DNA of 64,000 nt from Halorussus halophilus (lineage in GTDB: Archaea > Halobacteriota > Halobacteria > Halobacteriales > Haladaptataceae), in contig NZ_CP044523.1 in assembly GCF_008831545.1 (NCBI RefSeq), positions 1,488,001-1,552,000 of the forward strand, in the 5' to 3' direction. This document shows positions 27,749 through 33,877 of the stretch, piece by piece (positions within the stretch are counted from its first letter, which is position 1; every line of letters starts with the position of its first letter). The translations under genes were made by a program, and so were the position numbers. The notes under the pieces are model-generated. The model saw nothing but the letters and a program-made list of their open reading frames with translations, was not told the origin of the DNA and ran no database searches.

Positions 27749-28381
27749 CTACCGCCCTCGTCGCCCTTTCGTCTGCCGGTAGTCGCTGTCCATCAGCGAC
27801 TCGAAGTGGTCCAGAAACGCCTCGCGCTCGCTCTCGTTCTGTTCGAGCGGGTCGGCCATCGGCACGAGTTCGAAGCCGCGGCCGCGAATCGTCGTCGCGT
27901 GGTGGTCCGTCATCTTGATTTCGTCCGCGGGCGTCGTCGTGTACTCTGTCGCGATTGCTTCGAGCGCGCGCTCGCCGACCGGTACGAGGATTTCGGGGTT
28001 TATCATCCGAATCTCGGCGTTCAGATAGGGTTCGCAGGTCGTAATCTCCTCGTCTGTCGGCGGACGCTCGGGGTGACGACAGCGCGTGAGGTAGGTGACG
28101 AAGACGTTCTCCAGTTCTGGCTCGTCGGAACTCGGCAGAGAGTTGTTCAGTCCGAGCAGGCCCAAAATGTGTTGGAGTGCCTCGCCGCGCTCGTCGCCGG
28201 TGAACGGCACACCTGTCTCGTCCGCGCCCGCGTCGGGCATCTCGCCGACGAAGAGGAAGTCCGCGCCCACGTCGCCGTAGCCGTGGACGAGCGACTTGCG
28301 GGTCTCGCAGAGTGCCGCGCAGTTCGTACACGCCTCGTCCATCCCGAAGGGGTTCGAACGAGTCTGCTGGTTCGCGTCCAT
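27749..28381 (-). CDS. Uracil-DNA glycosylase family protein, iron-sulfur type
   Basis: A 210-residue member of the family 4/5-like UDG superfamily, removing uracil from DNA. N-terminal CTNCAALCETR and later CRHPERP and TTCEPYLN provide the four cysteines of a 4Fe-4S cluster. Motif 1 is VGEMPDAGADETGVPFTG, an imperfect form of GEAPGxxE. The second (HPS-type) motif is weak (TDHHATTI), so activity should be tested rather than assumed. Start at MDANQQTRSNPFG. Confidence 0.78.
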   Translation of the reverse strand: MDANQQTRSNPFGMDEACTNCAALCETRKSLVHGYGDVGADFLFVGEMPDAGADETGVPFTGDERGEALQHILGLLGLNNSLPSSDEPELENVFVTYLTRCRHPERPPTDEEITTCEPYLNAEIRMINPEILVPVGERALEAIATEYTTTPADEIKMTDHHATTIRGRGFELVPMADPLEQNESEREAFLDHFESLMDSDYRQTKGRRGR

Positions 28382-28533
28382 CGTCCGTACCGTGGAACCG
28401 GAGCAGTAAAAGCGGGACGGGACGCCGACAGTGGTTCGGCAATCTCGGATACACGGGTTCAACGGGCTGTTTCCCGGCGAAAACGGTGTGCGAAGTTTAT
28501 CGAACTCCTCGCGGTTCGTTCGGCGGGGGTTCG

Positions 28534-29220
28534 ATGACAGCACGAAAGTCGAAGACGGAGAGAACAGAGACGACCGAAGCGTCGTCACGACGCCGATTTC
28601 TGAAAGCCACGGGTGCAATCGGCGCGGCCACAGTCGGCGTGTCGGGAACGCTCGGCGCGTTCAGCACGGACGTAGCCGCACAAGAGTCGCCGATTCAATT
28701 CGCGGGCCGCCGGGGAGGATGGCGGGGCGTCGCACCAGAGTCGATTCGCGGACGGACGAATCCGACGCTCTCGCTCGAACGCGGGACGACCTACACCGTG
28801 GTCTGGGTGAACCGCGACGGATTGCCACACACGTTCAGCATCGAGGACGCTGAGGGGAACAGGTTGGAAGTTCTGAAGCCAATCGACGCGAGCGAAGTCG
28901 ATGTCGGCGGCATGAACCAGACCGTCACGAGGGTCGAAGAGACGACTGCGATGACGAACGAGACGACAACAGCAGAGGGGACGACAACGGCGGAGGAGAC
29001 GGCGACGAACGAGACGACGGCAGCGACCGAGACGCCGACTGCCGAAGGCCGGGTGACGACGCTCGCTGGCGAACTCGTGGACGTGTCCCAAGAGTTGACT
29101 GAAGAGGGGGCCGTGCAGGCGGTGCAGTTCGTCGCCACAGTGGAGATGTCGCGCTACCGATGCACAGTTCACCCGGGGACGATGGTCGGAAACATCACGG
29201 TCGAGAGCGGCGGCCCGTAG
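28534..29220 (+). CDS. Exported cupredoxin-like (halocyanin-type) protein A, Tat substrate
   Basis: 228 residues. Tat signal: SSRRRFLKATGAIGAATVGV, with a likely cleavage after DVAA. The mature part has cupredoxin features: TLSLERGTTYTVVWVNRDGLPHTFSI (first Cu His), and Cys-His-Met in YRCTVHPGTMVG. Between them sits a Thr/Glu-rich low-complexity insert (about residues 135-178). A paralogue lies at 33263. Probably a membrane-surface electron carrier or copper protein. Confidence 0.82.
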   Translation: MTARKSKTERTETTEASSRRRFLKATGAIGAATVGVSGTLGAFSTDVAAQESPIQFAGRRGGWRGVAPESIRGRTNPTLSLERGTTYTVVWVNRDGLPHTFSIEDAEGNRLEVLKPIDASEVDVGGMNQTVTRVEETTAMTNETTTAEGTTTAEETATNETTAATETPTAEGRVTTLAGELVDVSQELTEEGAVQAVQFVATVEMSRYRCTVHPGTMVGNITVESGGP

Positions 29221-29234
29221 CTACACCCTCGTTT

Positions 29235-30173
29235 TCACGACTCCGACTCTACGTCCGACTCCGGTTCTGACTCCGATTCCGACGTCGATTCGTCGGGCCG
29301 AAGATACGGCCGAATCTGGTCGAAGTGCGGGCCGCGCGTCACTCGCTCGTACTGTCGGTCGTGGGTCACGAACCCGTACTCGCTCAGTTTCGGGAGGTGG
29401 ACCTGTAGGAGCGATATTCGGACCGACCGTCGTTCGGTCGGTTCCGCACCGGCGACCAGTCTGGTGAGTTCGTCCGTCGAGAGTCCACCGTCTGTTTCGC
29501 TGAGGGCGTCGAGGACGCGTCGGCGCAAAGATTTCCGGACGGCGGCGAAACAGTCGTCTACGGACGGTTCGGGGGATTCTCTGGACTCCGAACGGTCGAA
29601 CTCGACCACCGTATCGAACAGTGCCCGAATCGTTCGGAGACCGTCACTGTCGTGTTCGCTCGGCGTCAGACAGAAGTAGGAGTCCGCATCGTGGGCCGCC
29701 AACGAACTGAGGAAGTCGTCGAGGAACGCACGCGCGTCGGCCGCACCGACGTGGTCTACGAGCACGTTCAGCGAGTCGAAGTATACGACCGTTCGGCCGT
29801 CAACTGGCCACGAGTCGAGATAGCCTTCGACTGCACGGTGTACCGCCGCCGGGTTCGAGGGGTCGGCCACACCACGAACGACGTTCTGCGGGCCGCCCGT
29901 CGCGGAACTGCCGCTCTTGGCGGCGCTCGTCGCACGCATCGCCGCGCCGACGCTGACTACGCCGACGTTTCGCGGTGGTCGTTTTGCGTGACTCCGCCAC
30001 GTGTCGAGGAACCGACGCGGGCCGTCGTACGTAACTGCCAGAACGTCGTCGGTCGTTGGGTCGTCTACGAGCAACGACAGCGGTATCTCGTCGGGCGACT
30101 CCCGGAGTACGAGGGTTTGCCCGTCGCCGCCAACGCGCGTCCGAATTAGCGTCGTCTCGGTCACCGTTGTCAC
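29235..30173 (-). CDS. DUF7504-like RecA-fold domain fused to a DUF7344-like winged helix
   Basis: 312 residues. The first 200 read as a RecA/KaiC-like alpha/beta fold without an intact Walker A (SLLVDDPTTDDVLAVTYDGPRR; TVVYFDSLNVLVDHVG in the Walker B position). Residues about 215-290 form a winged helix (RRRVLDALSETDGGLSTDELTRLVAG ... HLPKLSEYGFVTHD) of the haloarchaeal DUF7344 type. A Ser/Glu/Asp tail follows. Probable transcription regulator. Its start overlaps the stop of the upstream HalOD1-like gene by four bases. Confidence 0.78.
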   Translation of the reverse strand: MTTVTETTLIRTRVGGDGQTLVLRESPDEIPLSLLVDDPTTDDVLAVTYDGPRRFLDTWRSHAKRPPRNVGVVSVGAAMRATSAAKSGSSATGGPQNVVRGVADPSNPAAVHRAVEGYLDSWPVDGRTVVYFDSLNVLVDHVGAADARAFLDDFLSSLAAHDADSYFCLTPSEHDSDGLRTIRALFDTVVEFDRSESRESPEPSVDDCFAAVRKSLRRRVLDALSETDGGLSTDELTRLVAGAEPTERRSVRISLLQVHLPKLSEYGFVTHDRQYERVTRGPHFDQIRPYLRPDESTSESESEPESDVESES

Positions 30174-30541
30174 TCCTCTCGCGTGGACGACGGGGCGTTT
30201 CGAATCCGTACGTGACCGTCCGCGTAGGTGGCGACTTCCAGTCCACAGAGGTAGAAGACGACGCAGGAGTTCGGGTTGGCCTCCCGGTTCTCGAACAACG
30301 TGTCGAGTGAGTCGGGGTCTACAGCCTCCGCGAGTGGGATGAGCGTCGTGGTCGGGTCTACGTCCGCGATGTCGGCGATTGCCTCGATAACCGTCTCGCT
30401 CAACGTCGCGGAACCTGCCGGGTCGTGGTACGCGTGGTACGCTTCGTCCTGTCCCTCAACTTCGAGCAGTCTCGAAACAGTTTCGTCTTCGTATACATCT
30501 GGTTTTGACACAGTTCCCGGCCTCTGGAACTTATTATTCAT
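30170..30541 (-). CDS. HalOD1 output-domain protein
   Basis: 123 residues. The C-terminal 80 (LSETVIEAIADIADVDPTTTLIPLAEAVDPDSLDTLF ... VVFYLCGLEVATYADGHV) match the haloarchaeal HalOD1 output domain, usually found in or next to signalling proteins. It is translationally coupled to the DUF7504/DUF7344 regulator (ATGA overlap), so they likely act together. Confidence 0.8.
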   Translation of the reverse strand: MNNKFQRPGTVSKPDVYEDETVSRLLEVEGQDEAYHAYHDPAGSATLSETVIEAIADIADVDPTTTLIPLAEAVDPDSLDTLFENREANPNSCVVFYLCGLEVATYADGHVRIRNAPSSTREE

Positions 30542-30730: not shown

Positions 30731-30865
30731 ATGACCAAAACGCTACGCTCGCGGGTCGCCAAGCGACCCAGACTCGTCGGCGCGTTGTTCGCCCTGTTCG
30801 TACTACTCGCCTCCGTCGGAAACGCGGCCGCCGGGCGTTGTCTGGCAGTAATCTTCGGACCTTAA
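30731..30865 (+). CDS. DUF7503-like 44-residue membrane peptide
   Basis: MTKTLRSRVAKRPRLVGALF: a basic head, then a single hydrophobic segment LFVLLASVGNAAAG and a short tail. By recall this layout matches the very short haloarchaeal DUF7503 proteins. An ATG at 30686 would add 15 residues. Its stop overlaps the stop of the convergent CHAT gene within TTAA (30862-30865). Confidence 0.55.
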   Translation: MTKTLRSRVAKRPRLVGALFALFVLLASVGNAAAGRCLAVIFGP

Positions 30866-33009
30866 AGTTCGAGACCGTCGGACAGCCATCTCAGTACGCC
30901 GTCCTGTTTTACCGGTTGGTGTTCACGTTCGAGATACTCGCGTGCCGTCTCGGCCGTGACCCGGAACGGACCGATTGGTCCCGGCACGAGGAAGTGGCTG
31001 TCGTCGTCGCCGACGGTCGGCCGCGCGAGCGTGCCCATACCGCCTTCCCGCGGGGCGTACGTGTGGACCGTCAAGTCGTACTCGTCGGCACTAACTGCGT
31101 CGAGTTCGCAGAGCATGGGGAGACTCGTCTCCGACTGGACGACGGCGAATCGGCCGTCGCCGACGACTAAGTAGTGACCGCCGACGATGCTCTCGCCGCG
31201 CGCGACGGTGAGCGAGGCGTTTAGTGGGAACCCGAAGTTCAACAGTCGGGCCATCGTCGCGCCCACCCGCATCGCACCGCTGTCGATGACTTCGCTGAAC
31301 GTGACGACGCCCCCGACGCTCCCTCCTTCGAGGAGTGCCATCCCCTGCCCGTAGGACGTGCAGGCGTTCAGCAGGAAGGCGTCCACTTCGACAGTTTCGA
31401 GCGTCCTCGCGTCCAGCGACCCGTCGGCGCAGTCGAAGCCGTCGTCGTCGATGTGGCCGATGTAGTGGAGGAAGTCGGTTTCGGACGTGAGAACGTCGCG
31501 TAACTCACTGCGCGTCAGGTCGTAGTGAAACGTCACCTCGAACGGAAGGTTGTCGCGGGTACCGTAGGCTTCGCTTACCGCGTCGTCTTCCGCGCGCATC
31601 GTCGCGTCGTTGCAGACGACGGTGATGTCGATGTCCTCCGCGTTCGGTTGCCTGTCCAACCAGTTGCGAAATGCGACTGTTGTGGCTTTGCTCGCGCCGA
31701 AGGGAATCCCGTCTCCGAACCACGCCGACTCGACGGAGTCCGCTTCTGGTGGACGCACCATCGCCGGAAGCGTGAACTCGTCTGTGTCGTCCTCACCTTC
31801 GCCAGTAGTGTCGTCCTCACCTCTGTCGGCAGTGTCCTCGGTGTTGCCGCTCTCACTATCGTCGCCACTGCCCTCGTTTCCACCACTCCGAGTCTGTCCG
31901 GACATGAAGTCGTCGAGGACGGACGACCGCAACTCATCGGTCGAAACGGGCGTTCCGTCTGCGGGTCGGACGACCGCGAGGTCGCCGACGACGAACGGAA
32001 CGGCTTCGACGCCCGCCGGGTCGGGGTCTACGAACGCCGTCACGTTCCACCGCGGGAGGAACTCCTCGATAGTCTCGAACGGCACTTCGAGGTAGGCTTT
32101 CAGTCGCTCTGCCAGCGACGCGTCGTAGAGCGCCGGAAAGTCGAGGTCCACGAGCGGTTCGACCTCCGCTCGCTCGTGGAGGTCCACTTCGTAGTACCCC
32201 TCCGTCCGCGTGATGCAGTCGAAGAAGAACGTCTGCTTGAGGACGCGGGCGACCGACTGATCGAACGCCGTAGAGTCGTCTGTGTCGTCGCCGAGCGCGT
32301 GCGAGAAGCCGTTTTCGGCCTCGATACGTGGCTCCGTTCCCGGCACTAACTCTGCGCCGAGGTAGAACGCGAGCGGTGCGGCGACGACTGCCGCGCGGTG
32401 CGTCTGCGGAACCGAAATTTCGACTCCCGTGTCCGGTTTCGACAGCGGTTCGGGTACCGAAAATTCGTCGCCGAGTTCGACGAGTGGTGGGTGGCCTCGA
32501 AGCGTCGGATACGACCGCTCGACGCTCGTCGTCTTCAGCGCGGACCCGAGATAGGAGACGGCACGCAGGGCGTCTTCGGGGTCAGTCGTCGTGGTAATCG
32601 TCGCGGCTGGTTGCTCGTGGTACGACCGCGCGCCGACCAGCAGTCCGTCCGCGAACGAGACGGAGAGTCGTCCACCGTCGTTCGTCGCCTCCAGTGGTCC
32701 TACACCTCGCAAGTAGAGTTTCACGGGTGCGTTGACCTCGACTTCGTACTCACCGGCGGGGAGCGACACGGGCGACTCGGGACGAATCGCGGCGACCATC
32801 TCGCCGTCGCGGCGAACGTACGCGTCGGTGATGCCGTCTACGACGACAGAATCTGTAGCCACGGCTACCGCGGCATCGACCGGGAAGGCGAACCGACTCG
32901 GTGGAACTGTTTCCGGGCGCACGCGTCGCCCGACGGTGAGTTCGAATCGACGCCGTTCGATGGGGTCTACGACTTCGAGACCATCTGCGTGTGCATTGAA
33001 CGAGACCAC
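30862..33009 (-). CDS. CHAT-domain (caspase-like) protein, 715 residues
   Basis: The C-terminal third reads as a CHAT peptidase fold: strand and catalytic His519 in LHYIGHIDDDG, then catalytic Cys550 in FLLNACTSYGQGMALLEGG, with GVVTFSEVIDSGAM following. The 31-residue spacing fits the His/Cys dyad of caspase-like folds. The N-terminal 370 residues (MVSFNAHADGLEVVDPIERR) are a beta-rich haloarchaeal domain, joined by an acidic Asp/Glu/Gly/Ser linker (about 375-410). No signal peptide or TM segment, so cytoplasmic. It starts at GTG. CHAT proteases in other prokaryotes act in regulated proteolysis and defence; target here is unknown. Confidence 0.72.
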   Translation of the reverse strand: MVSFNAHADGLEVVDPIERRRFELTVGRRVRPETVPPSRFAFPVDAAVAVATDSVVVDGITDAYVRRDGEMVAAIRPESPVSLPAGEYEVEVNAPVKLYLRGVGPLEATNDGGRLSVSFADGLLVGARSYHEQPAATITTTTDPEDALRAVSYLGSALKTTSVERSYPTLRGHPPLVELGDEFSVPEPLSKPDTGVEISVPQTHRAAVVAAPLAFYLGAELVPGTEPRIEAENGFSHALGDDTDDSTAFDQSVARVLKQTFFFDCITRTEGYYEVDLHERAEVEPLVDLDFPALYDASLAERLKAYLEVPFETIEEFLPRWNVTAFVDPDPAGVEAVPFVVGDLAVVRPADGTPVSTDELRSSVLDDFMSGQTRSGGNEGSGDDSESGNTEDTADRGEDDTTGEGEDDTDEFTLPAMVRPPEADSVESAWFGDGIPFGASKATTVAFRNWLDRQPNAEDIDITVVCNDATMRAEDDAVSEAYGTRDNLPFEVTFHYDLTRSELRDVLTSETDFLHYIGHIDDDGFDCADGSLDARTLETVEVDAFLLNACTSYGQGMALLEGGSVGGVVTFSEVIDSGAMRVGATMARLLNFGFPLNASLTVARGESIVGGHYLVVGDGRFAVVQSETSLPMLCELDAVSADEYDLTVHTYAPREGGMGTLARPTVGDDDSHFLVPGPIGPFRVTAETAREYLEREHQPVKQDGVLRWLSDGLEL

Positions 33010-33262
33010 GCGAACACCTTGTGAACCCTTCGTTGGGCTATCTTTGTATTTCTCTTCGATGCAAAAAATCTACTGGATAGTTCGGCGTATCGTACAAATA
33101 TCTCGCCAGACGCCTGGCCCCGCCGAGAGACCCGTGCAATCGTGTCGATTTAACGGACGATTTTGCGACAGAACGACTCGTTACCCGTCAGCCGAACTGT
33201 TCCACGCACAGAACAGTGCGGGCGTTTTACCCGAGTCGCCGACGTCGATGTGTCGGAGAAAC

Positions 33263-33877
33263 ATGACACGAAGACAATCTCGTCGCCGCTTCCTGAAAGC
33301 GGCGGCCGCGACCAGTGTGGTAGCAGGCCTCAATGCTGCGGTCCTCGCACGGGGGCAAGAAACCGACGAACAGACGATTCTGCTGGGAGGCAGGACGAGC
33401 GGTTGGCTCGGCTATCGAGTGCCTGGTGGAGAGCCAGACGCCGACTCGAACCCGACGCTGAACCTCCAGCCTGGGACGACCTACACGCTACTCTGGAAGA
33501 ACGTAGACGCTCAACCGCACAACTTCGCCATCCAAGATTCGAACGGGAACAACCTCCAAGTTCTCCGGCCAATCTCCGTCAGCGCCGACCAGTTCGAATC
33601 GATGAATCAGAGCGCAGGAAATCAGACGGCTGGGAACGACTCGGGAATGATGGGCAACGATTCGGGGATGATGGGTGACAACGGAACCACGACCGCGGGC
33701 GGCGAACTCCTCGCACAGACCGAAATCATCTCCGAGCAGGGAGCGGTTCAAGGCGTCCAGTTCACCGCCACCGAGGAGATGGCGACGTACATCTGTTTGG
33801 TCCACCCGAACACGATGGTCGGCGAAGTATCGCTGTCAGGTGGCGATGGCGGAGCGGGGAACAACAGTTCGGCGTAA
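33263..33877 (+). CDS. Exported cupredoxin-like protein B, Tat substrate
   Basis: 204 residues. Tat signal RRQSRRRFLKAAAATSVVAG. The mature part repeats the layout of the protein at 28534: TLNLQPGTTYTLLWKNVDAQPHNFAI (Cu His), and Cys-His-Met in YICLVHPNTMVG. The insert between these is Asn/Gly/Met-rich (NDSGMMGNDSGMMGDNG), where Met repeats could bind Cu(I). Ends in a Gly/Asn/Ser tail. The two cupredoxins flank the regulator/CHAT block. Confidence 0.82.
   Translation: MTRRQSRRRFLKAAAATSVVAGLNAAVLARGQETDEQTILLGGRTSGWLGYRVPGGEPDADSNPTLNLQPGTTYTLLWKNVDAQPHNFAIQDSNGNNLQVLRPISVSADQFESMNQSAGNQTAGNDSGMMGNDSGMMGDNGTTTAGGELLAQTEIISEQGAVQGVQFTATEEMATYICLVHPNTMVGEVSLSGGDGGAGNNSSA

Follow-up and report, generated by a model that had tools for sequence, protein, structure and literature searches.

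A widespread CHAT-domain protein family of haloarchaea, often encoded beside DUF7504 proteins, and its possible role as a signal-gated protease

CHAT domains (PF12770) belong to clan CD, to which caspases, gingipains, and separase are also assigned, and several characterized members are defense effectors: the SAVED-CHAT protease, known as a filament (8tl0), and the TPR-CHAT protease Csx29 of Craspase (PMC10028731). Archaea are said to lack clear caspase homologues; a strong, stress-tied orphan caspase-like activity has been measured in Haloferax volcanii (PMC3615174). HalOD1 and inactivated KaiC (iKaiC) are described in excerpts of PMC5847659 as components of a haloarchaeal signaling network, with fusions of the two reported, and these excerpts of the account mention no CHAT protease output. 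Our literature searches on CHAT in haloarchaea and on DUF7504 returned no papers. Here we describe a large and nearly unannotated CHAT family of salt-loving archaea, which is often encoded beside a KaiC-like signaling protein and suggests a proteolytic output for the KaiC/HalOD1 network.

The family was approached through one gene in the window, that is, the whole stretch of 64,000 nucleotides of the Halorussus halophilus genome that was analyzed. A reading made from the sequence alone had placed an open reading frame at 30862-33009; these coordinates are exact, the frame is genuine, and it lies on the minus strand. Its product, here called P0001, is composed as follows.

30862..33009, minus strand: CHAT-family protein gene, 715 aa with a GTG start; homologue in 83 of 99 related genomes
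32620..33009, minus strand: N-terminal region, predicted as a beta-sandwich over about residues 1-130 (AF2 block pLDDT about 70-89)
31960..32592, minus strand: conserved middle region, about residues 140-350, with many invariant columns (SYPTLRGHPP, APLAFYLGA, DCITRTEG)
31765..31887, minus strand: acidic linker peculiar to P0001, about residues 375-415, partly gapped in relatives
31123..31749, minus strand: CHAT domain, residues 421-629, including H519 and C550, from profile and fold matches
31453..31455, minus strand: codon of the predicted catalytic His519, conserved in 91/92, position computed from the ORF start
31360..31362, minus strand: codon of the predicted catalytic Cys550, conserved in 91/92, position computed from the ORF start

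The part preceding the CHAT domain had been taken for a single N-terminal domain that could not be assigned. It contains at least two conserved parts, and the lack of an assignment holds for the second of them. The modeled beta-sandwich weakly resembles sandwiches of the galactose-mutarotase/GH type (Z 8.3), which possibly reflects merely a common arrangement. In the middle region, for which no fold assignment was obtained, R165, R171, H173, C265, and R268 are nearly or fully invariant; the idea that this region is an internal duplicate of the CHAT domain was unsupported (hhalign probability 0.2). The acidic linker noted beforehand is present in P0001, but since it is partly gapped in relatives, it is not a family feature.

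The C-terminal third of P0001 is securely assigned as a divergent CHAT domain of the caspase/separase type. P0001 alone matched no model of Pfam or NCBIfam, and as sole query in a phmmer search of the PDB it found nothing meaningful; at the level of the family, in contrast, similarity to PF12770 is present. This model matched 27 of 35 CHAT-domain sequences (best 4.1e-5) and 19 of the 35 full-length sequences, and at 30.9 bits one paralogue encoded in the same genome passes the curated cut-off of 24 bits, which most members are too divergent to reach. A profile of the CHAT domain searched against the PDB retrieved SAVED-CHAT 8tl0 (E=0.0013) in a match confined to the CHAT part, in which the His and Cys motifs are aligned. 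As in PF12770 proteins, these motifs follow successive core strands: His519 lies within YIGH and Cys550 within NACTSYGQG, as the sequence-only reading had pointed out. Both residues are invariant in 34/34 and 35/35 homologues of two alignments and present in 91 of 92 full-length homologues, highly divergent paralogues included. Because of this His-Cys dyad, a protease role of P0001 is likely, as far as sequence can tell. The sole exception (L067:4543-6606, minus strand) is a Methanocella-like pseudo-enzyme in which R and D replace the catalytic His and Cys, both lost jointly, in a family that otherwise keeps the two residues.

The structural evidence points in the same direction at lower confidence. 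The AF2 model of the C-terminal part has a mean pLDDT of 48.8 and a pTM of 0.46, and a prior full-length prediction from five sequences (pLDDT 46) left the CHAT region unresolved. The top VIA-align neighbors of the low-confidence model are 8tl0 (Z 7.3), the gingipain RgpB (6.4), C. elegans separase (6.2), and caspase-6/-7 (about 6), values of around 6-7 on a model with pTM 0.46 that, as any Z below 8, may reflect only a common arrangement. The same list holds receiver domains (Z 5.9) and a TsaB-type match (Z 6.5) that is short and covers the C-terminal tail only. SAVED and TPR parts are not listed, which proves nothing about either. Taken with the profile matches, these caspase-related rows support the CHAT membership proposed for P0001.

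Homologues of P0001, mostly full-length and in many cases multicopy, are found so regularly among the related genomes (83/99) that chance is excluded. The genome of the window itself has 13 CHAT-family genes, and 5-18 matches per genome were counted in its genus and family. In a phylum-wide sample of 296 genomes, 53 of the 60 genomes listed from the same order have a family member; outside that order, matches are limited to four genomes of one other family, which we take to be Methanocella-like. These carry one copy each, two of which match the profile from position 31 to about 625 and the other two its middle and CHAT regions. Within one large family, 123/138 genomes carry a CHAT-family gene. 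The CHAT family is nearly universal in haloarchaea and often single-copy, and its members share the predicted beta-sandwich, the conserved middle region, and the CHAT domain. Plasmid matches are haloarchaeal without exception, and scans of viral contigs found no relative. Annotation is sparse: RefSeq-type records contain 25 members on plasmids, of which one is called a 'caspase family protein', one a 'CHAT domain-containing protein', one lies in an unannotated record, and the rest are 'hypothetical'. The family may have been overlooked because PF12770 misses 12 of 14 Haloferax members; for the same reason, a negative PF12770 result for H. volcanii is uninformative.

In its architecture, the family differs from the described CHAT systems. 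While 8tl0 is the best match of the P0001 CHAT domain by sequence profile as well as by VIA-align, Pfam finds no SAVED match, and the N-terminal part consists of the predicted beta-sandwich and the conserved middle region, an architecture that is new among CHAT proteins. Csx29 has the CHAT protease domain in common, but neither P0001 nor its relatives match a TPR family, and there is no cas7-11 gene, nor any other CRISPR or CBASS gene, among the neighbors examined. P0001 had been described as a haloarchaeal member without TPR repeats or a cas neighbor, which agrees with these results; it is not isolated, however, but belongs to a pan-haloarchaeal family that has 13 members in this genome alone. 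PADLOC models gave no match for P0001 and no relevant match for 35 members.

A search for conserved co-occurring genes, which the sequence-only reading had proposed, identified DUF7504 (PF24336) as the commonest partner. Among the 82 unique loci whose upstream sequence was long enough, a sample in which the closest relatives of P0001 are overrepresented, 34 have it directly upstream of the CHAT gene on the same strand, and in 44 it lies no more than 3.5 kb away. In 48 loci, the window locus among them, no DUF7504 gene is directly upstream. In the genome of the window, DUF7504 directly precedes 6 of 13 CHAT genes, though there are just 17 DUF7504 genes in 4.45 Mb. The pairing is fixed in Haloferax, where the single CHAT gene adjoins the best DUF7504 in 14/14 genomes searched; the pair shows conserved core synteny between a REC-HalX regulator/TrmB side and an Usp/aminotransferase side. 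Methanocella-like members have no detected DUF7504 neighbor. Searched against the PDB, the DUF7504 profile finds KaiC best, in a weak match (E 0.03), and the archaellum protein FlaH further down, and its alignment contains no Walker A motif. We regard DUF7504 as a putative degenerate KaiC-like protein without Walker A whose link to KaiC is weak.

At the window locus, the DUF7504 genes lie downstream and in divergent position, together with a HalOD1 gene.

30170..30541, minus strand: HalOD1 (PF18545) protein, 123 aa, E 4.5e-18, downstream of CHAT; likewise in L042, L044, and L049
29235..30173, minus strand: DUF7504 + DUF7344 (HTH-like) protein of 312 aa whose gene overlaps the HalOD1 gene at the latter's end; likewise in L042 and L049, with the DUF7504 part in L044
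33960..34637, plus strand: DUF7504 protein, 225 aa, divergent; the downstream CHAT gene of H. vallis (L042) is absent here

The order CHAT, HalOD1, DUF7504-DUF7344 is shared by the window, L042, and L049, and L044 has CHAT-HalOD1-DUF7504. H. vallis (L042:7916-11031) has a second CHAT gene behind a DUF7504 gene; the counterpart of this DUF7504 gene in the window is an orphan, downstream of which tblastn found no CHAT remnant. Moreover, a DUF7504-HalOD1 fusion protein is encoded directly upstream of CHAT in L024, L026, and L028, reminiscent of the HalOD1-iKaiC fusions mentioned above. The gene context of P0001 is one of signaling (DUF7504, HalOD1, HTH) and not of defense, and it is on this neighborhood that the regulatory setting of the CHAT protein rests.

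Among several explanations, we somewhat favor that P0001 is a cytosolic protease that is gated by a signal and takes part in haloarchaeal signal transduction, rather than a cas-linked defense protein. It would act as a CHAT-type cysteine protease through the His519-Cys550 dyad, with the beta-sandwich and the middle region probably serving as sensing or partner-binding part. Its activity would probably be gated by DUF7504, a putative KaiC-like fold that would have lost the ATP-binding loop, joined by HalOD1 and HTH proteins that belong to this signaling network as well; a signal would make the protease cleave one target or a few in the cytosol, such as a regulator. In this way, the CHAT protein would supply haloarchaeal signaling with a proteolytic output. 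That the protein is instead a suicide protease of abortive infection, a caspase-like executioner triggered by stress or virus and acting on many targets, we consider rather unlikely: The characterized defense effectors among CHAT proteins, the strong expansion and varying number of copies within the genus and family to which the window belongs, and the stress-tied activity in H. volcanii would fit such a role, whereas the neighbors are housekeeping and signaling genes, and patchy defense islands would not lead one to expect the nearly universal, single-copy, and syntenic Haloferax member. This core position in Haloferax, together with the lack of a relevant PADLOC match and the absence from viral contigs, is why the signal-gated protease is preferred over a defense executioner.

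Two further readings question the protease itself. The dyad might serve self-cleavage or peptide binding alone, making the CHAT domain a non-proteolytic or autoprocessing scaffold, for which speak the lack of a known substrate and the retention of the L067 protein despite the loss of both catalytic residues; as every other homologue strictly keeps the dyad even among highly divergent paralogues, we deem this quite improbable. Least credible by far is that the domain is no CHAT at all but a Rossmann-like or receiver-like one with a coincidental His and Cys. It could draw on the receiver domains in the VIA-align list and on P0001 alone being without a Pfam match, yet the family-level PF12770 matches, including the paralogue over the cut-off, and the alignment of His and Cys with 8tl0 argue strongly against it.

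In Haloferax, the family provides a candidate for the orphan caspase-like activity, a conserved gene present once per genome and paired with the same partner in all genomes searched. H. volcanii belongs to the same archaeal class and lay outside the search in which each Haloferax genome had one family copy; the CHAT family could contain the missing gene behind its activity. The broadest version of this idea strikes us as unlikely: a pan-haloarchaeal protease-output system of iKaiC-like DUF7504 and CHAT with HalOD1/HTH partners, present in more than 10 parallel modules per genome, whose single-copy Haloferax member causes the orphan activity.

Individual loci depart from the common arrangement around the CHAT gene. 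Open frames of 900-1200 aa suggested a DUF7504-CHAT fusion, which was dismissed as the DUF7504 matches sit in separate overlapping frames. Downstream of a complete CHAT gene, L108 has a truncated CHAT copy that is a C-terminal fragment (profile 461-692) and adjoins a DUF7504 gene (L108:2202-2984 and L108:1104-1793, both minus strand). Two frames flanking the window locus, 28312-29220 and 32732-33877 (both plus strand), weakly match plastocyanin/azurin (Copper-bind), with scores that stay under the curated cut-off. In L016 and L025, the open frame directly upstream of CHAT is histidine-kinase-like, as recognized by eye. In one subfamily, finally, an unassigned conserved gene of about 230-270 aa takes the place of DUF7504 directly upstream of CHAT (L032:5067-5882, L033:5123-5866, L034:5101-5865, L048:7237-7989).
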